Below the pieces are notes generated by a model that saw only the letters and a list, made by a program, of their open reading frames with translations, was not told where the DNA came from and ran no database searches. 64,000 nucleotides of DNA from Cognatitamlana onchidii (GTDB lineage: Bacteria; Bacteroidota; Bacteroidia; Flavobacteriales; Flavobacteriaceae): contig NZ_SRWZ01000007.1 of the NCBI RefSeq assembly GCF_004804355.1, forward strand, positions 1 to 64,000. Direction: 5' to 3'. Made by a program: the position numbers and the translations under genes. Positions 3,378-21,991 of the stretch are shown here, piece by piece. Numbering within the stretch: position 1 is the first letter of the stretch; each line of letters begins with the position of its first letter.

Positions 3378-6300
3378 ATGACTAAAGATAAAAAGAAGAA
3401 AAAAGTAAATAAAGAGTTTGCATTATCCTCTTGGGCAATTAACAACAAAACAACCATGTATGTGTTGATTGCTTTGATACTCTTTCTTGGAGCTGGAGCG
3501 TATTTTAGCATGCCAAGAGAGAACTTCCCAGAAATAAAAGAAACCAAAATCTATATTAGTTCTGTTTACCCAGGAAACACAGCCGAAGATATTGAGAAAT
3601 TAATTACCGACCCCATTGAAGACAAGTTAAAAACGGTTAGTAATGTTGTTGAAATTACATCTACATCTCAGGAAGATTATTGCATTGTTATTGTTGAATT
3701 TGACGAAAACATCACGGTTGAAGCTGCAAAGCAAAAGGTAAAAGATGAAGTAGATTCTGAAACGGCTGGCGAGGACTGGCCTACTTTTAATGGCGCTAAA
3801 GTTGAGCCTAATGTGTTCGATTTGAGCATGTCTGAAGAAATCCCGATCCTCAATATTAACATTTCTGGTGACTACCCAGTTGACAAACTTAAAGAGTATG
3901 GCGAATATCTTGAAGACGAGATTGAAAGCCTTCAAGAAATTAAGCAAGTAGATATAAGAGGAGCTCAGGAAAAAGAAGTAGAGGTCGCTGTAGATATTTA
4001 CAGAATGATGGCTGCCCAAGTGAGTTTTGATGATGTTATTAACACCATAAGCAGAGAAAACATGACCATGTCTGCTGGTAATTTAATTACAAGCGGGCAG
4101 CGCAGAACCATTCGTATTCTAGGAGAAATAGAAGATCCCAAAGAACTTGAAAATTTTGTCGTGAAATCTGAACTTAATAACCCTATCTATTTAAGAGATA
4201 TTGCTACGGTTACATTTAAAGATGAAGACAAAACTACGTTTGCCAGAGAGTTTGGACATCCCGTAGTAATGCTTGATGTAAAAAAGCGCGCTGGTAAAAA
4301 CATGGTGGCAGCAGCAGAACAAATTCAGGTTATTGTAGACAAAGCTGTTGAAAATGTTTTTCCTCCAGATTTGGAAGTAACGATTGCCAACGACCAATCC
4401 TCGAAAACCATAGGTCAGGTAGACGATTTAGTAAACAATATCATCTTTGGTATTATACTAGTGGTTACCGTACTTATGTTCTTTTTAGGGTTTAAAAATG
4501 CCTTGTTTGTAGGGTTTGCCATCCCAATGTCTATGTTCATGTCTTTAATGATTTTAGACTATTTGGGATACACCATGAATACCATGATACTATTTGGTTT
4601 AATTATGGGATTAGGTATGTTGGTCGACAATGGTATTGTGGTTGTTGAGAATGTTTACCGCCTAATGAGCGAAGAAGGCATGAGTCGAATTGAGGCCGCC
4701 AAAAAAGGTATTGGTGAGATTGCATTTCCTATAATCATTTCTACTGCAACTACGGTGGCAGCCTTTATCCCATTAGGATTATGGCCTGGAGTAATGGGGC
4801 AATTCATGATTTATTTCCCAATTACACTTTCAGTTGTATTAGGATCTTCTTTGTTTGTTGCTATTTTCTTCAACTCTGTAATGGTGTCACAGTTTATGAC
4901 CATCGAAGACAAAAACATGCCGCTCAAACAAATCATAAGAATTTCAGCTATTGTTGGTGGTATTGGTTTACTAATTTTAGTGGCGGGAGGAAGTTATAGA
5001 GGTCTAGGAACTTTAATGATTGTAACCGTAGGTCTACTATGGCTATATAGATTATTCTTGAGAAAATGGGCTAATGGTTTTCAAAATCATGTTTTACCCC
5101 GATGGGAACGTGTTTACGAAAAGTCATTGCGCTTTGCACTAAGTGGAAAGAAACCCATTCTCATATCTGTAGGAACCTTTATATTACTCATAGTAGCCTT
5201 TATGGGCTTTGGAGCTTCCGTAGGAAGTCAGCGAACTAAAGTCGAGTTCTTCCCAGACAATACCCCTAACCAAATCATTGTTTATATTGAATACCCCGAA
5301 GGTACCGATATTCAAAAAACGAATGCCATTACCAAAGACATTGAGGAGCGTGTCTATAAGATTATAAATGATGAAGCTTATATGCATGGCGATTTTAACT
5401 TTTTAACAGAGAGTGCCGTATCGCAAGTAGGAGAAGGTGCTGGAAACCCTCAAACAGATGGAGGCTCTGCGGCAGAAATGCCGCATCGTGGAAAAATTAC
5501 GGCTACCATGCGAGAATATAAATATCGTGATGGTGCAGACAGTAATGTATTGCTCAAAAGAGTTCAGGAGGACCTCAAGGGTATTTACCCTGGTGTTGCT
5601 ATTTCGGTCGAAAAAGACGCCGTTGGCCCCCCTGCTGGTTACCCCATTAATATTGAAATTGAAGGGAGCGATTATGGGGAACTCATCACTACGGCAGAAA
5701 AAATGCGTGACTTTATCAATACTAAAAATATTCAAGGTATCGATGAGTTAAAAATTGATGTCAATAAGGCTAAACCTTCTATGCAGGTTTTGGTAGACAG
5801 GAAAAAAGCAGGAGAATTAGGTATCACCTCCGGTCAAGTTGGACAACAGCTACGTAATGCCATTTTCGGAGCTAAAGCCGGCATATATAAAGAGGATGGG
5901 GAAGATTATGATATTTATGTTAGGTTTAATAAAGAAAATAGATATAATACGAGTGCTATATTTAATCAGAAGATTACATTTAGAGATATGGCTACTGGTA
6001 AAATTAAAGAAATACCGGTATCGGCGGTGGCTAGGCAAAACAACTCCTCTGGTTTTAGCGCCATTAAACACAAAGATGTTAAGCGAGTGGTAACCTTGTA
6101 TTCGGCACTTGCACCTGGATTTACAGATGCTGGAGCCATTGTTTCCAAAATTCAAAACGAGATGCAAGGTTTTACAGAACAGCCTGACGGTGTAAAAATA
6201 GATTTCACAGGTCAAATAGAAGAGCAAAACAAGCAAATGGCATTCCTTATGGGAGCTTTCTTTACAGGTCTGGGTTTAATATTCTTCATTTTAATATTTC

Positions 6301-14846: not shown

Positions 14847-16187
14847 TTAGAATGTAACGCCTTCAATCTTTTTAAAATTCTGGATGGCTTTGCTGTCACT
14901 TAACAAAGACACATAATGGCAAACAGATAACAAGCGTTGGTATAAACTAGAAGCACTAAAATTTATGGTTTCTGGGAGGCGTTTTAAGATAAGCTTGTCG
15001 TAGTTTGATGCAGTACCATTAAAACTGTTATTTACCGCAACAGTATATACCATGAGCAATTTGTTGATTATTTGATAGCCAGCAATTTCTTTATCGACCA
15101 CCTCGTCGGATTGGTAAATTTTTTCGACACTTATTTTAATGATATCCTTTATTTGTGCGTCATACTTGCTTTTATCCAGCAATGCACAATCGAAAGTACT
15201 ATTTAAAATAGCATCTTCATTTTTCATAAAAATATCGACAGCGTCATTTATTAGGGCTCCAATGGCCAAAGCTCGAAGATACCCAATACGATCTTCCTTA
15301 TTCCCAAGTGCGTAATAATTTTCTGGGATGATATTATCACGAATTACCTTGGAAAGATACTCTAGCGCATATTCCTCTTGAATAAGCCCAAGGTTAATAC
15401 CGTCTTCAAAATCAATAATAGTATAACAAATATCGTCTGCCGCCTCGACCAAATAAGCTAATGGGTGCCGGGCATAACTCAGATCTTTATCGCTTCGCTT
15501 TATAAGCCCTAGTTCGTTCGCTACATCTTTAAATGCCGCTTTGTCTGATTGAAAGAATCCGTATTTTTTGTCGGCAATGTGTTTTGTTGGTTTCTTGGGT
15601 AAGGATTCTTTAGGGTATTTAGTAAATGCCCCTAGAGTAGCATAGCTTAGACGAAGCCCGCCCTCTCGACCTGCTCTACTTTGGGTTAGAATCTTGAATC
15701 CGTTGGCGTTCCCTTCGAAATCACATAAGTCTTGATATTCTTTATCGGTTAATTGATTTTTGTACTGCTTCCCGAGTCCTGATTTAAAGAACTCTCCTAT
15801 AGATTTTTCGCCAGAATGCCCAAATGGCGGATTTCCAATATCGTGAGCCAAAGCCGCGGTTGCAACAATAGCCCCAAAATCGTTTGCTTGATAACCATGA
15901 ACCTTTTGTAAACTTGGATGTTTTTCTAATACTTTTTGCCCTACTTTTCGCCCTAAAGAACGCCCAACAACACTAACCTCTAAACTATGGGTTAAACGGG
16001 TGTGCACAAAATCGGTTTGTGATAAAGGGATTACTTGCGTTTTATCCTGTAGGCTTCTAAATTCTTGAGAAAAGATAATACGGTCGTAATCCACTTCGAA
16101 ACCCAGCCGAGTTTCATCCTGTTCTTTTCTTAGTCGTTTATTGGTATCGCCATAGCGTTTTAAGGAGAGAAGTTGTTCCCAGTTCAT
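14847..16187 (-). CDS. dgt: Deoxyguanosinetriphosphate triphosphohydrolase (HD domain)
   Basis: A 446-residue HD-superfamily dNTP triphosphohydrolase that removes tripolyphosphate from dGTP/dNTPs. Metal-binding residues are visible: HTRLTHSLE near 62-70 (His67) and ALAHDIGNPPFGHSGE with His115-Asp116, plus the later DICYTIIDFEDG segment. The length fits the Dgt/SAMHD1-like bacterial enzymes. It is a single gene reading away from the phosphorus island. The 275 bp upstream are shared with the divergent gene at 16463. Confidence 0.93.
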   Translation of the reverse strand: MNWEQLLSLKRYGDTNKRLRKEQDETRLGFEVDYDRIIFSQEFRSLQDKTQVIPLSQTDFVHTRLTHSLEVSVVGRSLGRKVGQKVLEKHPSLQKVHGYQANDFGAIVATAALAHDIGNPPFGHSGEKSIGEFFKSGLGKQYKNQLTDKEYQDLCDFEGNANGFKILTQSRAGREGGLRLSYATLGAFTKYPKESLPKKPTKHIADKKYGFFQSDKAAFKDVANELGLIKRSDKDLSYARHPLAYLVEAADDICYTIIDFEDGINLGLIQEEYALEYLSKVIRDNIIPENYYALGNKEDRIGYLRALAIGALINDAVDIFMKNEDAILNSTFDCALLDKSKYDAQIKDIIKISVEKIYQSDEVVDKEIAGYQIINKLLMVYTVAVNNSFNGTASNYDKLILKRLPETINFSASSLYQRLLSVCHYVSLLSDSKAIQNFKKIEGVTF

Positions 16188-16362: not shown

Positions 16363-16440
16363 GTAACATTAGGGTAACATTTTGATTAAACAGGTTTAAA
16401 GTTTAGGTAACATCTTAATCATGTTTATATCTTTAATTTG
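16363..16440 (+). promoter_or_regulatory. Phased 11-bp Pho-box-like array and -7 element (promoter 1)
   Basis: Six 7-mers start at 16363, 16374, 16385, 16396, 16407 and 16418: GTAACAT, GTAACAT, ATTAAAC, TTAAAGT, GTAACAT, ATCATGT. All have T at position 2 and A at position 4. The last ends 8 bp before TTAATTTG (16433-16440), a near-consensus -7 element 22 bp ahead of the next ATG. The 7+4 direct-repeat format is that of PhoB boxes; the regulator identity is inferred. Confidence 0.65.
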
Positions 16441-16462
16441 CATTTCATTTAAGAAATAGCAA

Positions 16463-16849
16463 ATGAAAAATATTGTTTTTACATTATTATTAGTTATTGC
16501 GGCATCAAGTTTAAGCTTCAGTCAAAATTCAGGATCTATTAGCGGAACCTTATTAGATCTTGAATCTAACAATGCGCCTTTAACTTTCGCAAGAGTTAAA
16601 ATTAAGGAAACAGGTGCAGAAGTGCTTTCTGATGAAAATGGCGTGTTTAGGCTTAACAACTTAGAGGCAGGCGCTTACACTTTAATTTACAGTTTTGTTG
16701 GTTATGAAACTAAAGAAACTGAGGTGAAAATTACTTCAAACAAATCCACAAACATAACTTTACATTTAGCGGCTAGCACTATTTCACTAGACGACTTGGT
16801 TATGGCTATTGCAAGTACAGACGAAAAAAGTACAACGAGCACCAATTAA
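16463..16849 (+). CDS. Secreted free-standing CarboxypepD_reg-like domain protein
   Basis: A 128-residue protein with a Sec signal peptide (SSLSFSQ, cleavage near residue 20) and one CarboxypepD_reg-like (transthyretin-like) domain, then a short Ser/Thr-rich tail. It closely resembles the N-terminus of the TonB-dependent receptor encoded next: both contain YTL(I/V)(Y/F)SFVGYET and end in a SLDDLV/SLDEVV segment. It stops exactly where the receptor would continue into its plug. It could be a receptor remnant or an autonomous periplasmic partner. It has its own phased promoter and terminator, which favours a real gene. Confidence 0.8.
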   Translation: MKNIVFTLLLVIAASSLSFSQNSGSISGTLLDLESNNAPLTFARVKIKETGAEVLSDENGVFRLNNLEAGAYTLIYSFVGYETKETEVKITSNKSTNITLHLAASTISLDDLVMAIASTDEKSTTSTN

Positions 16850-16884
16850 GCAGCACATAAAAAGTTCTTTTTTTAAAATATTTT

Positions 16885-16921
16885 AGAAGCGGTTTTTAAG
16901 TAATTAAAAACCGCTTCTTTT
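16885..16921 (+). terminator. Rho-independent terminator
   Basis: AGAAGCGGTTTTTAA (16885-16899) pairs perfectly with TTAAAAACCGCTTCT (16904-16918), a 15-bp stem with a 4-nt loop followed by T-rich sequence. It ends the 16463 transcript. Confidence 0.85.
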
Positions 16922-17032
16922 ATTATAGACATTATCAAGCAATTAACATATCATTAAAATATTCTTGCAAAACCAGCTTTGCAATAATGTAAAACCCCTA
17001 TCTCTACTAAATCAAGGGTTTAACGTTTTAAT

Positions 17033-17050
17033 GTTAAATTAATGTAACTA
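17033..17050 (+). promoter_or_regulatory. Extra Pho-box-like pair upstream of the receptor
   Basis: GTTAAAT (17033-17039) and GTAACTA (17044-17050) are 11 bp apart. They lie 25 bp upstream of the main array and out of its register. A weaker set (TTATCAA, TTAACAT, TTAAAAT at 16932, 16943, 16954) lies further upstream. Confidence 0.4.
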
Positions 17051-17074
17051 AATATAATGCTTAATCGCTTCTTG

Positions 17075-17152
17075 ATAACATTATCCTAACGCTTTTGTTA
17101 CTGTTCTTTAACTAATAGGTAACGCTTTGTTTACAATATGTCAGTTCCTTTG
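17075..17152 (+). promoter_or_regulatory. Phased 11-bp Pho-box-like array and -7 element (promoter 2)
   Basis: Six 7-mers every 11 bp from 17075: ATAACAT, CTAACGC, GTTACTG, TTAACTA, GTAACGC, TTTACAA. Each fits nT(A/T)AC. The last ends 8 bp before TTCCTTTG (17145-17152), the putative -7 element, which is 23 bp before the receptor ATG. There is no TTG at the -33 position, as expected for an activator-dependent promoter. Confidence 0.7.
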
Positions 17153-17175
17153 CGGCAAGAAATCATAGATAAAAA

Positions 17176-19932
17176 ATGAAGAAAATCACATTTCTGTTTA
17201 TACTTTTAGCAACAGTATTTACGTACGCTCAAACTACAGGATCTGTAGTTGGGAAACTAACAGACAAAGAATACAATAACGAGCCGTTAGCCTTTGCAAA
17301 TGTTTTAATAAAAGGAACAACAACAGGAACCACTTCAGATTTTGATGGACTTTACGCCTTTAATGACTTAGAAGTTGGAGACTACACCTTAGTATTTAGT
17401 TTTGTTGGATATGAGACTCAAGAAATTTCTGTTACTATTGCTGCAGGAAAAGTAACTGAAGTTAACGTGCCTATGGGAGCCAGTGCGGCATCTCTTGATG
17501 AGGTGGTTATTACTACAACCACAAAAAGAGAAAGCGAAACCGCTTTATTATTGGAGCAGAAAAAGGCAGTAATTATGAAACAAGCCATTGGAGCTCAAGA
17601 ACTGGAAAAAAAGGCCGTCTCTGATGCTGGTGCCGCGACTTTAAAAGTTACCGGCGTTAACAAAAAAGAAGGTTCCAGTAAAATATATGTAAGAGGTCTT
17701 GGGGATCGATATAATAGTACGACCTTAAATGGACTGCCACTCCCATCTAATGATCCACGAAATAAAAACATTGATTTAGCTATGTTCTCGTCTGGAATTA
17801 TACAAAACGTAGGAATATCGAAATCATTTTCTTCAACATTTTCATCTGATGTTGCTGGAGCCAACGTCGATATTGTAAGTAAAGAGATGTCTGGAAAAGA
17901 GTTTTTTAAAGTTTCTCTATCGGCTGGGGCAAATACCCAAACCACCTTTAAAGATTTTAAACAAATGGATGGTGCTAACTGGATTGGTGTTAATACAAAT
18001 ACCAAACATAAAGTTAGAGACTTAACTATTTACAGTTTTGACAATAGCTTTACTCCTAAATCCATTAAAGCCAGTCCTAATTTTGGTTTAAGTTTAAACT
18101 ATGGTAACAAATACCAAATAAACGATGAGAGTAATATTAGCATATTTTTAGTGGGATCCTTTAGTAATTCTTACCGTTACCAAGAAGGACGTAATGAAAA
18201 CATCATAGACGCTGGTAATGTGGGCTCACAATGGGATACTCAAACCTTTGGTTATGGCGCCTCAAAAATGCTCATGGGGAATGTGGCTTATAAAATTAAT
18301 AACAATCACCAAATAAGCTTCAACCATGTTTTTATTCACTCCAATACTCAAAAAATAGAAGATTTTGTTGGTACGACGCCAGACATTGGTAGAGATGAAG
18401 ACGACAACAGACTTGTAAATTTAGTTTTGCAAACAGAAATTCAAAACAAGTTGTTCACTAACCAGCTTTTGTCTACAAACAAATTTGGTGAATCCATTGA
18501 TGTTAATGCTGGGCTAAGTTATAATGCCATTTATAATGACGAACCTGATAGACGTAAGAACACTTTTATTATTGATAATGATCTTGAGAAAACTCGAATT
18601 TCTCAAAATGCCGTGAGAGATAATAGTAGATTTTACGGAAATCTTTTTGAAGATGATATTGCAGGTAACCTTAATTTTATAAAGTATTTTGGAGAGCGTT
18701 TTGAAAATAACGGAAAATTAACCTTAGGCTATAATGGAAGATATACCCAAAGAAAGTTTGATGGTATGTATTTTGACCACAATTTCACTAGTCCAAGGAC
18801 TACTTTTGTAGACGTTAACAACCTTGATGCTACATTTAATCAAACAAATTTAGACGATGGCGTTTTTGGGCTTGAAACATCTAGAGGACGAAATAACCAA
18901 GATGCCGAGACTTTTTTGCCACAACTCTATGATGCCGATAAAACTACACATGCTGCTTTTGGAGATGTTGTTTATAAATTTAACGACAAATTTACCGCTA
19001 ACGCAGGATTACGTGCTGAAAACGTAAAAATGAATGTAGCTTGGAACACGAATATTAGTTTTCCTGGATTTACGGACAATAGCCAAATAGCATTGGATAA
19101 ACAATATGTTCTGCCTGCTTTAAATTTAAAATACCAACTTAACGATAAAATTAACTTAAGAGCGTCTGGTAGTTTAACATACACATATCCGCAGTTTAAG
19201 GAAATTGCGCCTTTTACTTATGAAGGCATAAACTATCAAGAGTCTGGTAATCCTGCATTGCAACCCTCAGATAACTATAACGCAGAATTAAAATTTGAAT
19301 TATTCCCGAAAAAAAGTGAATTATTTGCGATAGGCGTTTTTGGAAAACTTATTGAAAATTCAATCAATAGATTAGAAAGAAACTCGGCTATTGAACGTGA
19401 TTTTACTTTTGACAATTCGGGCGATGCAACAATTTATGGAGCTGAACTTGAAGCGAGATTAGATTTATATTCAAAAGAAATTGATGATGAAAAATCGCAA
19501 TATTTTACTTTTGGTACGAATGCAACATTTATGCACACAGATTTAAAATTTGATACTAGCAACACTGCCTTTAACTACACAGGCGAGAATTCACAGTTAG
19601 AGGGCGCATCTCCTTTTACTATAAATGCCGATGTTTCTTATAGATTTATTAATGGAGACAAAGAAACCGTTTCAACATTAGTATTTAATTATCAAAGTGA
19701 TAAAGTATACAGTATTGGTACTAACTTCAAGGAAAATATTATTGAAAAAGCCGTGCCAATTTTGGATTTTGTTTTTAAACATGATTTTAATGATCAAATT
19801 GGAGTTAAATTTAACGCAAAGAATTTGCTTAATCCAAGCTTTGAAAGGTACAGAGATATTCCAGAAAAGCTCACGATGAACACCTATAAGAATGGCGTCA
19901 CTATTACTGCTGGTGTCTCCTTTAATTTCTAA
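17176..19932 (+). CDS. TonB-dependent outer-membrane receptor, probable phosphate-starvation member
   Basis: A 918-residue receptor: signal peptide (TVFTYAQ), CarboxypepD_reg-like domain at about 22-105, a TonB-box-like SLDEVVITT near 111-119, a plug with RGLGDRYNSTTLNGLPLPS near 174-192, and a C-terminal beta-barrel ending in Phe (SFNF). It imports a substrate across the outer membrane using TonB energy. No SusD partner is present; instead a beta-helix surface lipoprotein follows. The phased Pho-box-like promoter and a nearby PiT phosphate permease suggest phosphate or a phosphorylated compound as substrate. That substrate call is inference. Confidence 0.93.
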   Translation: MKKITFLFILLATVFTYAQTTGSVVGKLTDKEYNNEPLAFANVLIKGTTTGTTSDFDGLYAFNDLEVGDYTLVFSFVGYETQEISVTIAAGKVTEVNVPMGASAASLDEVVITTTTKRESETALLLEQKKAVIMKQAIGAQELEKKAVSDAGAATLKVTGVNKKEGSSKIYVRGLGDRYNSTTLNGLPLPSNDPRNKNIDLAMFSSGIIQNVGISKSFSSTFSSDVAGANVDIVSKEMSGKEFFKVSLSAGANTQTTFKDFKQMDGANWIGVNTNTKHKVRDLTIYSFDNSFTPKSIKASPNFGLSLNYGNKYQINDESNISIFLVGSFSNSYRYQEGRNENIIDAGNVGSQWDTQTFGYGASKMLMGNVAYKINNNHQISFNHVFIHSNTQKIEDFVGTTPDIGRDEDDNRLVNLVLQTEIQNKLFTNQLLSTNKFGESIDVNAGLSYNAIYNDEPDRRKNTFIIDNDLEKTRISQNAVRDNSRFYGNLFEDDIAGNLNFIKYFGERFENNGKLTLGYNGRYTQRKFDGMYFDHNFTSPRTTFVDVNNLDATFNQTNLDDGVFGLETSRGRNNQDAETFLPQLYDADKTTHAAFGDVVYKFNDKFTANAGLRAENVKMNVAWNTNISFPGFTDNSQIALDKQYVLPALNLKYQLNDKINLRASGSLTYTYPQFKEIAPFTYEGINYQESGNPALQPSDNYNAELKFELFPKKSELFAIGVFGKLIENSINRLERNSAIERDFTFDNSGDATIYGAELEARLDLYSKEIDDEKSQYFTFGTNATFMHTDLKFDTSNTAFNYTGENSQLEGASPFTINADVSYRFINGDKETVSTLVFNYQSDKVYSIGTNFKENIIEKAVPILDFVFKHDFNDQIGVKFNAKNLLNPSFERYRDIPEKLTMNTYKNGVTITAGVSFNF

Positions 19933-19940
19933 TAAATATA

Positions 19941-19967
19941 AAGCCTCCTAACTTAGGAGGCTTTTTT
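19941..19967 (+). terminator. Rho-independent terminator of the receptor gene
   Basis: AAGCCTCCTAA and TTAGGAGGCTT form a perfect hairpin with a short loop, followed by a T run, 9 bp after the stop codon. It makes the receptor and the following lipoprotein separate transcripts. Confidence 0.88.
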
Positions 19968-20050
19968 ACATAGTACTGTTACTAAAAAGTAAATCTTGAA
20001 AAAGAAAAAAATCAAAGCAGTAAACAAACACTTAACATTAGGATAAATTC

Positions 20051-20106
20051 TTAACATAATACTAATACAAGCGTAAGATTATGTTTAAGGAAAATTTCGT
20101 GCTTTG
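20051..20106 (+). promoter_or_regulatory. Phased 11-bp Pho-box-like array and -7 element (promoter 3)
   Basis: Four 7-mers every 11 bp from 20051: TTAACAT, CTAATAC, GTAAGAT, TTTAAGG. The last ends 8 bp before GTGCTTTG (20099-20106), a degenerate -7 element 25 bp ahead of the ATG at 20132. The geometry equals that of promoters 1, 2 and 4. A separate TTAACAT at 20032 is out of register. Confidence 0.58.
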
Positions 20107-20131
20107 CAGCACAATAAAATAAAAACGAAAA

Positions 20132-21328
20132 ATGAAAACTTTAAAAAATTTATTCTTAGTTGCTATAACAGCTTCAATTATTTCATGTTCATCTGATGAT
20201 GATAATAGAACTATTGTTCCTCCGGGAGATGGTGGAGATATCATTGGTAGCGAATTAAAAGGAGATATTACGGCCGATAGTAAGTTAATTGCAAGTGTTG
20301 ACTATATTATGACAGGTTCAGTAACTGTAAAAGAAGGTGTAACACTAACCATTGAGCCAGGAACAACTATTAAAGCTAAAAGCGGAAGAACAGATGTGTT
20401 TTTAGCGGTTGAAAGAGGCGCTAAATTAATTGCAAAAGGAACTGCTTCTAATCCTATTGTATTTACATCTGATGCTAGTTCTCCTAAGGCTGGAGATTGG
20501 GGAGGTCTTGTATTAGCAGGAAAGGCTCCTTCAAATAAAGGGCTTGATGTACAGTCTGAAGTAGCAGGATTATTATATGGAGGAACGGAAGTAGACGACA
20601 ATTCTGGTGAACTCAGCTATGTTATTGCTGAATATACTGGAGCAAAAATTAACGGTGAGCAAGAATTTAACGGAATTTCTTTCTTTGGTGTTGGAAACAA
20701 TACTACTGTAAACAATATTGTTGTAAGCAATGGTAACGACGATGGAATTGAATTCTTTGGAGGAAGCGTAAATGTAACCAATGTTTACTGCGCGAACATA
20801 GCAGATGACATGTTTGATTGGACTGGTGGATATACGGGAACCGTCACAAATGCGTTCGGTGTTCGTAACGAAGATTTTGATGCTGCTACTGATGACCCAA
20901 GAGGTATTGAAGGCGACAGCAACAGTTCTGATGCAACAGCAACTCCAATTTCAACTCCTACATTAAACAATGTAACTATCCTTAACTTAAATCCAAATGT
21001 GCAATTAAAAGCAGGTGCCGAAATTAGAAGAGGAACCGTTGCTACTATCAATAATATTTTCTTTGCTGCTTATGGTGATGCTTCCTTTGGAAATAGAATA
21101 GACACAAAAGATGACAAAGGAAATGGTACTTTAACTATTGTAAATGCAAATGCTCAAGGTTCTGTGGGAGATGATAAAGAAGGTGGTGCTATAAACGGAT
21201 CTGTAACTGAAATAACTGATGGTTTTTCTGTACCAGCAGATAATACTGTTGAGTTCAAGTCTGGAGTTGGAGCTAACCTAGCTGCTTTTGATTGGGCTGA
21301 CCAAAACTTTGTGGTTACCAAAAAATAA
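20132..21328 (+). CDS. Beta-helix surface lipoprotein paired with the receptor
   Basis: A 398-residue lipoprotein: lipobox SIISC with Cys19 followed by SSDDD, an acidic surface-export tail. The mature part has parallel beta-helix-like repeats (for example VKEGVTLTIEPGTTIKAK and ILNLNPNVQLKAG) with many Gly, Asn and Asp turns. Homologues in Flavobacteriia are often mislabelled as multidrug transporters, but nothing here looks like a transporter. Its position behind a TonB receptor and a Pho-like promoter suggests it captures or processes the receptor's substrate at the cell surface, replacing a SusD. That role is inference. Confidence 0.8.
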   Translation: MKTLKNLFLVAITASIISCSSDDDNRTIVPPGDGGDIIGSELKGDITADSKLIASVDYIMTGSVTVKEGVTLTIEPGTTIKAKSGRTDVFLAVERGAKLIAKGTASNPIVFTSDASSPKAGDWGGLVLAGKAPSNKGLDVQSEVAGLLYGGTEVDDNSGELSYVIAEYTGAKINGEQEFNGISFFGVGNNTTVNNIVVSNGNDDGIEFFGGSVNVTNVYCANIADDMFDWTGGYTGTVTNAFGVRNEDFDAATDDPRGIEGDSNSSDATATPISTPTLNNVTILNLNPNVQLKAGAEIRRGTVATINNIFFAAYGDASFGNRIDTKDDKGNGTLTIVNANAQGSVGDDKEGGAINGSVTEITDGFSVPADNTVEFKSGVGANLAAFDWADQNFVVTKK

Positions 21329-21361
21329 TTCTCGGGTTACAATTAAAAACACTTGATAACA

Positions 21362-21387
21362 AAAAGCATCCCAATTGGGATGCTTTT
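21362..21387. terminator. Bidirectional terminator
   Basis: AAAAGCATCCC and GGGATGCTTTT form a perfect stem around AATT between two convergent genes (lipoprotein and MORN-like). It is A-rich on one side and T-rich on the other, so it can serve both. Confidence 0.82.
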
Positions 21388-21414
21388 GTATTTAATTTAG
21401 TTTAGTTGCTATTT

Positions 21415-21729
21415 TTAAAGTGAAGCTACATTTTTACTATAATCAACTTCCTTCAACTCACCTTCAATAACATAAATCCATTTACCAACTTTCTTTCCAT
21501 CCTTATAATAAGCAGTAACAAGTTTTTCTCCTTTTTCATTAAAACTTAACCACTCTCCCTCTAACTTACCATCTACGGTGTAAGTTCCTGTTTGGCTTAC
21601 TTCTCCATTATCATGATAGTAAACAACTTCAATTAGGTTTGTTTCTTTATTATGCGTTAAGGTTCTTTCTTTTTGAGCAAAAGTAACCGTAGTAAAAAGC
21701 GCTATTGTGAATAAGATTATATTTTTCAT
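21415..21729 (-). CDS. Secreted MORN-repeat-like protein
   Basis: A 104-residue protein with a signal peptide (TVTFAQ) and tandem short beta-strand repeats of the MORN/YwqK type: YYHDNGEVSQTGTYTVDGKLEG, then FNEKGEKLVTAYYKDGKKVGKW. Such repeats bind lipid or protein in other systems, but the function here is unknown. It reads away from the PiT gene across a 289-bp intergenic region holding several Pho-box-like half-sites. Its own -7 element is a perfect consensus, so it may be expressed constitutively. Confidence 0.78.
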   Translation of the reverse strand: MKNIILFTIALFTTVTFAQKERTLTHNKETNLIEVVYYHDNGEVSQTGTYTVDGKLEGEWLSFNEKGEKLVTAYYKDGKKVGKWIYVIEGELKEVDYSKNVASL

Positions 21730-21760
21730 ATCGATGGGGTTTTAATTAATAATTACTTTA

Positions 21761-21768
21761 CAAATATA
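21761..21768 (-). promoter_or_regulatory. -7 element of the MORN-like gene
   Basis: The minus strand reads TATATTTG, an exact TAnnTTTG match, 31 bp upstream of the ATG. Confidence 0.55.
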
Positions 21769-21787
21769 CATTTGTTTTTACATTTAA

Positions 21788-21881
21788 GCAACATTCACGT
21801 AACATTAATTTAACATTAAACCTATAAATAATTGATATTCAGTAATTTATTTTATTTAAATTTAGTAACATTCGTTAACAT
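21788..21881 (+). promoter_or_regulatory. Distal Pho-box-like half-sites between MORN-like and PiT genes
   Basis: GCAACAT, GTAACAT and TTAACAT lie at 21788, 21799 and 21810, exactly 11 bp apart and in plus orientation. A second pair, GTAACAT (21865) and TTAACAT (21875), is spaced 10 bp. No -7 element follows at the 8-bp distance, so these would be auxiliary sites. Confidence 0.5.
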
Positions 21882-21946
21882 AACACCCAAGCGCCTCGTA
21901 AATACCGACTCTAACTCCTTATTAGTTTCTTTAAAATGAAAAGAAC

Positions 21947-21991
21947 ATAACATTCGCGTAACATTGGGTTCACTTAAAAATAAGACATTTG
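21947..21991 (+). promoter_or_regulatory. Phased 11-bp Pho-box-like array and -7 element (promoter 4)
   Basis: ATAACAT (21947), GTAACAT (21958) and TTCACTT (21969) are spaced 11 bp. The last ends 8 bp before GACATTTG (21984-21991), a partial -7 match, and the PiT ATG follows 27 bp later. The register is the same as at promoters 1 to 3. Confidence 0.65.

Follow-up and report, generated by a model that had tools for sequence, protein, structure and literature searches.

Which regulator, and which signal, is served by the strings of similar 7-mers that precede four neighbouring genes of Cognatitamlana onchidii, a member of the Flavobacteriaceae? The genes lie in a stretch of 64,000 nucleotides (NCBI RefSeq assembly GCF_004804355.1, contig NZ_SRWZ01000007.1, positions 1 to 64,000 of the forward strand), referred to here as the window, and encode a CarboxypepD_reg-like protein, a TonB-dependent receptor (TBDT), a lipoprotein-like protein and a PitA-type phosphate transporter (Table 1). 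The reading of these arrays as Pho boxes is well supported by the sequence comparisons described below. The full explanation, in which the arrays are the Pho boxes of the Flavobacteriaceae and a PhoB-like regulator would activate phosphate-uptake genes from them through the adjoining −7 element, is considered highly probable.

An earlier, sequence-only reading of the window had counted 19 7-mers in the four arrays, all with T at position 2 and A at position 4 and following one another at exact 11-bp steps, the last one ending 8 bp before an octamer taken as the −7 element. The steps and the two fixed letters hold for 19 of 19 7-mers, and the distance of 8 bp holds for all four promoters. The counts of 6, 6, 4 and 3 units stand for the first three promoters; at the PitA promoter four 7-mers obey the rule, the added one being ATGAAAA at position 21936. 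The same promoter has a TTG at positions 21964–21966, 17 bp before its −7 octamer, and the claim that no −33 TTG is present does not hold strictly. A strong distal array at 21777–21816 had gone unmentioned. PHO boxes are direct repeats of 7 + 4 nt whose consensus varies between species (PMC4415409), and the window arrays have this layout, i.e. repeats of about 7 nt, spacers of about 4 nt and a period of 11 bp. They also hold the fixed position of an element that stands in for the −35/−33 box, with phase and distance kept in relatives; this position is reckoned from putative −7 elements and not from mapped transcription starts, and one of the four window promoters has a TTG, as said.

Both strands of the window were scanned by a simple rule that takes each TTTG and looks for 7-mers of the form NTNANNN starting 19 + 11k bp upstream of it. 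Among 1,105 TTTG anchors the four longest runs were those of the four promoters (6, 6, 4 and 4 units), and the next best run had 3. Runs of at least 4 occurred on average 0.13 times, and at most twice, per simulation in 100 first-order Markov simulations, the longest having 5 units and none reaching 6. At each of the other ten phases the real window had 0 or 1 run of at least 4, the longest being 5. Scores given to the arrays by the window matrix make use of the window's own sites; the rule and the tests at the level of the genome and of the relatives are independent of them.

The phase is conserved beyond the window. A matrix made from the 19 window units only was applied, at eleven phases, to 16 syntenic regions and 80 named loci of relatives, the closest named relative being Algibacter mikhailovii (92% in the receptor). 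The window phase (d = 0) was the best one in 38 of 46 promoters of the syntenic regions, four further upstream regions having no TTTG in range and remaining unscored. At the named loci it was best in 68 of the 80 TBDT promoters (all with TTTG in range), in 44 of 53 scored lipoprotein promoters (the other 25 of 78 lacking a TTTG in range) and in 30 of 37 scored PitA promoters (1 of 38 had none). Promoters in phase occur, among others, in Flavobacterium, Maribacter, Cellulophaga, Flagellimonas, Polaribacter and a Sphingobacterium; the spacer letters differ among the relatives and the phase is mostly constant. The arrays at orthologous promoters of related genera, on which the sequence-only reading had staked itself, are present and in phase.

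The information profile of 42 promoters of the locus, from the window and from relatives, is highest at units two and three, counted upstream from TTTG (T−29 A A C; T−40 A A), strong columns recurring at 11-bp steps 29–51 bp upstream of TTTG. Less information is carried by the unit closest to the −7 element, which lies in the spacer (T and A at 81% each), and also by units four and five. The −7 element is GTnnTTTGCA-like, i.e. it is without the TA of TAnnTTTG and has G at −4.

From these 42 promoters the composite motif TAA-N8-TAAC-N7-TNA-N15-TTTGC was derived. In the C. onchidii genome (3.42 Mb, 12 contigs) it has two zero-mismatch matches, namely promoters 1 and 2, which had themselves contributed to its definition; the reversed control had no zero-mismatch match in this genome. 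When one mismatch was allowed, 18 matches, including promoters 3 and 4 and a site ahead of a gene for a CAP-domain protein, were obtained against 6 for the reversed control. In 120 genomes of the family, 151 exact matches compare with 25 for the reversed control (89 against 22 genomes). Twenty of the 151, chosen by eye as lying outside the listed lipoprotein places, were inspected: nine precede the same families (PitA 2, lipoprotein 1, TBDT 3, CarboxypepD-reg 3), six precede moxR-like genes, and five fall within open frames or are followed by no gene that could be recognised. The genes at 15 inspected matches were named by Pfam in seven cases, by BLASTP in one and by likeness of the N-terminus in the rest. 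The anchored motif was used because a two-unit pattern, DTAACATNNNNDTAACAT, was too weak to define a regulon (46 matches with one mismatch against 33 for the reversed control in the C. onchidii genome) and was discarded. A three-unit pattern had a match in 49 of 60 genomes, often at the distal array.

That these elements form a flavobacterial Pho box had been proposed in the sequence-only reading, and the proposal gains support from PitA, from the pair of TBDT and lipoprotein, from the phoB neighbourhood and from the phased orthologous arrays. Like Pho boxes, the arrays stand before phosphate-uptake genes: PitA in the window, a PF07396 porin in relatives, and a TBDT that is found beside phoB in 24 of the 80 named loci. 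In these 24 loci, 12 of which are named Flavobacterium, the TBDT gene is divergent from phoB at a distance of at most 600 bp; phoR is present in 24, a glycosyltransferase in 21, and the TBDT promoter is in phase in 23. Their gene order is that of the low-phosphate-induced region Fjoh_0541–0546; orthology to Fjoh_0545/0546 is deduced from the gene order in related Flavobacterium, the genome of Flavobacterium johnsoniae being outside the sample. In F. johnsoniae, Fjoh_0545, Fjoh_0546 and phoB are raised at low phosphate, with changes on phosphate depletion of 8.0 for the TBDT, 9.9 for the lipoprotein and 3.1 for phoB, which the text implies to be log2 values (PMC8115612, Table 1). A phoB mutant of Bacteroides fragilis shows decreased pst genes and phosphate permease at low phosphate (PMC3547664). 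In Riemerella anatipestifer, the sites of PhoP, described as the regulator of a phosphate-type PhoPR pair, upregulated in phosphate starvation, have TTTAACA as their most conserved letters, and in electrophoretic mobility shift assays (EMSA) the protein bound phoPR, moxR, a TBDT and an outer-membrane barrel (PMC9603813).

The genome of C. onchidii encodes two regulators of the OmpR type. The first, on another contig, is closest to PhoB models and adjoins a histidine kinase, matched best by PnpS and PhoR although below the cut-offs of both, and a PF04101 glycosyltransferase, so that its neighbourhood resembles Fjoh_0541–0544. Upstream of its gene is a four-unit array (ATAACAT, GTAACAA, CTTACAT, TTAAACT). 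The second has RprY as its best NCBIfam match (281.5 bits against a cut-off of 370). PhoU, PhoX and phytase had no match in the genome; pst and phoA were not searched for.

Several observations weigh against the Pho-box reading. The PhoB-like regulator scores below the NCBIfam cut-offs for PhoB (219.5 against 296.2 and 208.6 against 270), and the array flanking its gene is locked to no TTTG and directed away from phoB. Among the named loci, 12 of the 80 TBDT promoters do not have the window phase. The counts are not independent, since orthologous promoters have a common ancestor and the two sets of relatives overlap in species, as seen from identical small RNA loci. In F. johnsoniae, low phosphate induces homologues of both PhoX and phytase (PMC8115612); in 30 PhoX and 30 phytase loci of relatives, with an author-set threshold of 8 bits over four units at the locked phase, a locked array was found near the start in 1 of 28 PhoX upstream regions (two loci being without an in-frame ATG) and in 0 of 29 phytase upstream regions (one without ATG), the other phases giving 0–1 in each case. 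Over the whole 1.5-kb flank the figures are 1 of 30 and 0 of 30, operon leaders further away being outside the scan. The same 8-bit score is passed by 70 of 80 TBDT, 38 of 78 lipoprotein and only 12 of 38 PitA promoters, so that it overlooks some true cases. In L152 (minus strand), the sole PhoX locus above the threshold, the array precedes the PhoX match by about 558 bp. The PhoX and phytase counts speak against a reading in which every Pho gene has the array. Lastly, the recurrent moxR matches are not obviously phosphate genes. The composite motif occurs at moxR-like promoters in six genomes (L251, L255, L256, L259, L260 and L261). These matches were at first read as a chance conserved promoter, and this was given up in view of the R. 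anatipestifer PhoP–moxR EMSA; because PhoP binds moxR there (PMC9603813), moxR is kept as a possible true target.

The following mechanism would account for the geometry. Under phosphate limitation, the PhoB-like regulator and its kinase would act, and the regulator would bind head-to-tail on the 7-bp half-sites, which in their best form, GTAACAT/TTAACAT, are spaced by 11 bp, i.e. one per helix turn. With the place of the −33 box counted from TTTG by the general numbering, half-sites 2 and 3 should occupy that place, and a tandem PhoB dimer may substitute for the box. The bound regulator would recruit RNA polymerase to a −7 element that is presumably weak by itself, being GTnnTTTGCA-like and not TAnnTTTG; the distance to the −7 element would be fixed because the regulator replaces the −33 box. 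Half-sites further upstream may contribute cooperative binding. The presumed outer-membrane targets, i.e. the TBDT with the lipoprotein, the CarboxypepD-reg protein and, in relatives, the OprP-type porin, would import phosphate or organophosphate, and PitA would carry out the inner-membrane step.

OmpR-family regulators generally bind direct repeats of 10–11 bp, and the second of the two OmpR-type regulators of C. onchidii is matched best by RprY. The arrays could be read by this RprY-like protein, or by both regulators, and the signal would then be envelope or redox stress and not phosphate. In R. anatipestifer the recurrent match moxR is among the PhoP-bound genes that the authors linked with oxidative stress, and the motif was described as ArcA-like as well (PMC9603813). 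Against this stand the genes downstream of the arrays, namely PitA, the OprP-type porin of relatives and the TBDT beside phoB in 24 of the 80 named loci; moreover, the R. anatipestifer protein that recognises TTTAACA was described as the PhoP of a phosphate-type pair (PMC9603813). This alternative is judged unlikely.

The tight coupling of the pattern to a −7 element that departs from TAnnTTTG (G at −4) would also be expected of a core promoter type, set by an alternative sigma factor or an AT-rich UP-like element and having no activator site, and several sigma motifs are described for F. psychrophilum (PMC9723704). Runs of up to six helix turns, with strong columns every 11 bp at 29–51 bp upstream, fit a tandem activator instead, and arrays without a −7 anchor exist both at 21777–21816 and in the phoB flank, which leaves a pure core promoter very improbable. 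The domain shared by the CarboxypepD-reg protein and the TBDT could suggest that the promoters are alike through recent duplication of one upstream region, without regulatory meaning. The letters between and around the 7-mers differ among the four promoters, however, the genes for PitA and the lipoprotein have no relation to each other, and divergent genera keep the phase, as does the promoter of a small RNA element (43 of 45 loci; see below); such an origin of the pattern is extremely improbable.

In each of eight relatives examined, an open reading frame (ORF) of about 400 aa lies between the gene for the 104-aa protein and PitA, and in the one that was scanned it encodes a PF07396 (OprP-type) porin. 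It is preceded by a distal array like that at 21777–21816, a locked array, and then a sequence of about 100 nt that ends in an intrinsic terminator. Examples of this RNA element are found at approximately 7561–7670 in L063, at 4926–5035 (minus strand) in L064 and at 15367–15478 in L271. Beside the distal-like array of L063, TATCTTTG is readable as a −7 element for a gene on the opposite strand. The terminator stem of the element shows base changes on both sides and the rest of the fold hardly varies; with its own promoter, an intrinsic terminator and a conserved fold, the element is a candidate trans-acting small RNA. A covariance model located it in 134 of 299 genomes of the family, the eight sources of the model included; in 18 of the 134 the best E-value is above 1e-4 and the match may be due to chance, and with the strict filters some RNAs were missed. 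Among the named loci it is present in 24 of 80. An Rfam search of the region of one relative (L064 3100–5300) gave no hit above threshold, the best having 17.9 bits against a gathering value of 55. Of 50 distinct loci, 5 had no TTTG; in 43 of the 45 scored the RNA promoter keeps the phase, as does the promoter of the downstream porin in 39 of 43.

A loop segment of the RNA, typically UAUUAGUUUUUGUCG, complements the porin leader immediately ahead of the start codon. The 54 loci, 50 of them distinct, include 44 with a porin and its start downstream. Over these 44 RNA–porin pairs the exact complement spans 7–17 nt (mean 12.9), and in 41 it falls at the same ACAAAA site. Background leaders gave a mean complement of 6.6 nt, and 1,032 of 42,592 comparisons reached the observed value, the exclusion of leaders with ACAAAAAC/T from this background favouring the pairing result. 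For the longest exact complement at 32 of the 54 loci, 1,312 of 32,416 background comparisons reached the observed value, porin leaders being part of that background. Duplex energies at 32 of the 54 loci gave a weak result, the observed values being reached by 312 of 3,200 shuffled leaders, in which the shuffle mixes short leaders poorly, and by 156 of 4,800 random ones. The porin (E 1e-40) is present in 120 of the 134 genomes with the RNA and in 45 of the 165 without it, phylogeny being uncontrolled in this comparison. One locus, L071, has between 7428 and 9162 an RNA followed by an ORF start unlike that of other relatives, and this genome is without the usual porin at E 1e-40. In the genome of C. 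onchidii neither RNA nor porin is present at the thresholds used, the RNA being absent by the covariance model and likewise by the core pattern.

From these comparisons it may be proposed that PhoB activates both the RNA and the phosphate porin encoded just downstream of it. The exposed loop of the RNA (UUAGUUUUUGUCG) would base-pair with the porin mRNA at its 5′ end and around its start, and the RNA would likely repress the porin by masking the start region; porin levels would then be capped by an incoherent feed-forward loop. C. onchidii would have lost RNA and porin together, and the distal array 21777–21816, which alone remains, is probably a remnant of the lost promoter region of the small RNA and porin. 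The joint proposal, in which 11-bp PhoB arrays are combined with a GTnnTTTGCA code and a new small RNA of about 100 nt caps a porin, RNA and porin both having been lost in C. onchidii, is given an even chance of being right. No phosphate-linked small RNA of this kind was found described for flavobacteria in the literature searched; small RNAs such as Rfp18 are known in F. psychrophilum (PMC9723704) and were not compared with the element.

Table 1. Arrays, putative −7 elements and genes of the locus (window coordinates).
Feature	Position	Strand	Description
CarboxypepD_reg-like protein, 128 aa	16463–16849	+	PF13715, 76.3 bits; first gene of the set
TonB-dependent receptor, 918 aa	17176–19932	+	PF00593, PF07715
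Lipoprotein-like protein, 398 aa	20132–21328	+	without Pfam match
104-aa protein	21415–21729	−	without Pfam match; at the same place in many syntenic regions
PitA-type phosphate transporter, 765 aa	22019–24316	+	PF01384, 100.3 bits
Array 1	16363–16424	+	six 7-mers at 11-bp steps (16363, 16374, 16385, 16396, 16407, 16418); rule-scan run 6; zero-mismatch composite match at 16397
Putative −7 element, promoter 1	16433–16440	+	TTAATTTG
Array 2	17075–17136	+	six 7-mers at 11-bp steps; run 6; zero-mismatch composite match at 17109
Putative −7 element, promoter 2	17145–17152	+	TTCCTTTG
Array 3	20051–20090	+	four 7-mers at 11-bp steps; run 4; one-mismatch composite match at 20063
Putative −7 element, promoter 3	20099–20106	+	GTGCTTTG
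Array 4	21936–21975	+	7-mers at 21947, 21958 and 21969, and conforming 7-mer at 21936; one-mismatch composite match at 21948
Putative −7 element, promoter 4 (PitA)	21984–21991	+	GACATTTG
Distal array	21777–21816	+	TTTACAT/GCAACAT/GTAACAT/TTAACAT at 11-bp steps

Relatives of the lipoprotein-like protein, paralogues included, are found in 271 of the 299 family genomes. Outside the window, the site C5:643720 of the C. onchidii genome (L003 1501–1550) reads TTAACAT/TTAACAT/TTCAGGT, followed after 8 bp by TAATTTTA and then by a gene for a CAP-domain protein, which by this likeness is likely a further target. At C10:212139 (L008 1501–1529) there is a three-unit array, GTAACAT/GTAACAT/ATAACTT, downstream of which no ORF of at least 60 aa starts within 350 bp on the strand of the array.

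The low-phosphate genes of flavobacteria have already been catalogued by omics, 95 transcripts of F. johnsoniae having a log2FC above 4 on phosphate depletion (PMC8115612). Except for the TTTAACA half-site of R. anatipestifer, no cis code for such genes was found in the literature searched; the operator is of a known kind, and what appears to be new is its fixed geometry, which was likewise not found there. If the Pho-box reading is true, a phased array at a fixed distance from the −7 element would make the regulon predictable from sequence across many genomes, and activator action at Bacteroidetes promoters becomes a simple question of spacing. Should the RNA element be expressed, the Flavobacteriaceae would have in it a conserved RNA that regulates a porin under phosphate control.

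The PhoP box of Bacillus subtilis has a consensus of the TTAACA type. Its half-site and period are very similar to those of the window arrays (7 + 4 layout, PMC4415409), whereas phylum, core promoter and targets are different, and the likeness is drawn from half-sites and not from regulons. The Pho box of Escherichia coli PhoB (PMC4415409) likewise consists of head-to-tail 7-nt units with 4 nt between them, has a period of 11 nt and stands before phosphate-uptake genes. In contrast to it, the flavobacterial unit is GTAACAT/TTAACAT and not CTGTCAT, up to six units follow in a row, and the last 7-mer lies 8 bp from a Bacteroidetes −7 element of the GTnnTTTGCA type; a TBDT, a lipoprotein, a porin and PitA are the targets, and the genome gave no PhoU match. 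The DNA affinity purification sequencing (DAP-seq) motif of R. anatipestifer PhoP, TTTAACA, has the same half-site core, and moxR, a TBDT, a barrel and phoPR are bound; an 11-bp period, a fixed distance to the −7 element or a phosphate-uptake locus was not found described in the available part of that report, whose authors compare the motif with that of ArcA (PMC9603813). The main text of the paper on the low-phosphate regulon of F. johnsoniae contains neither "pho box" nor "promoter" (PMC8115612). Its phoBR genes with the adjacent induced TBDT and lipoprotein have the same order as the named Flavobacterium loci, and the cis element proposed here would be the addition to that regulon.

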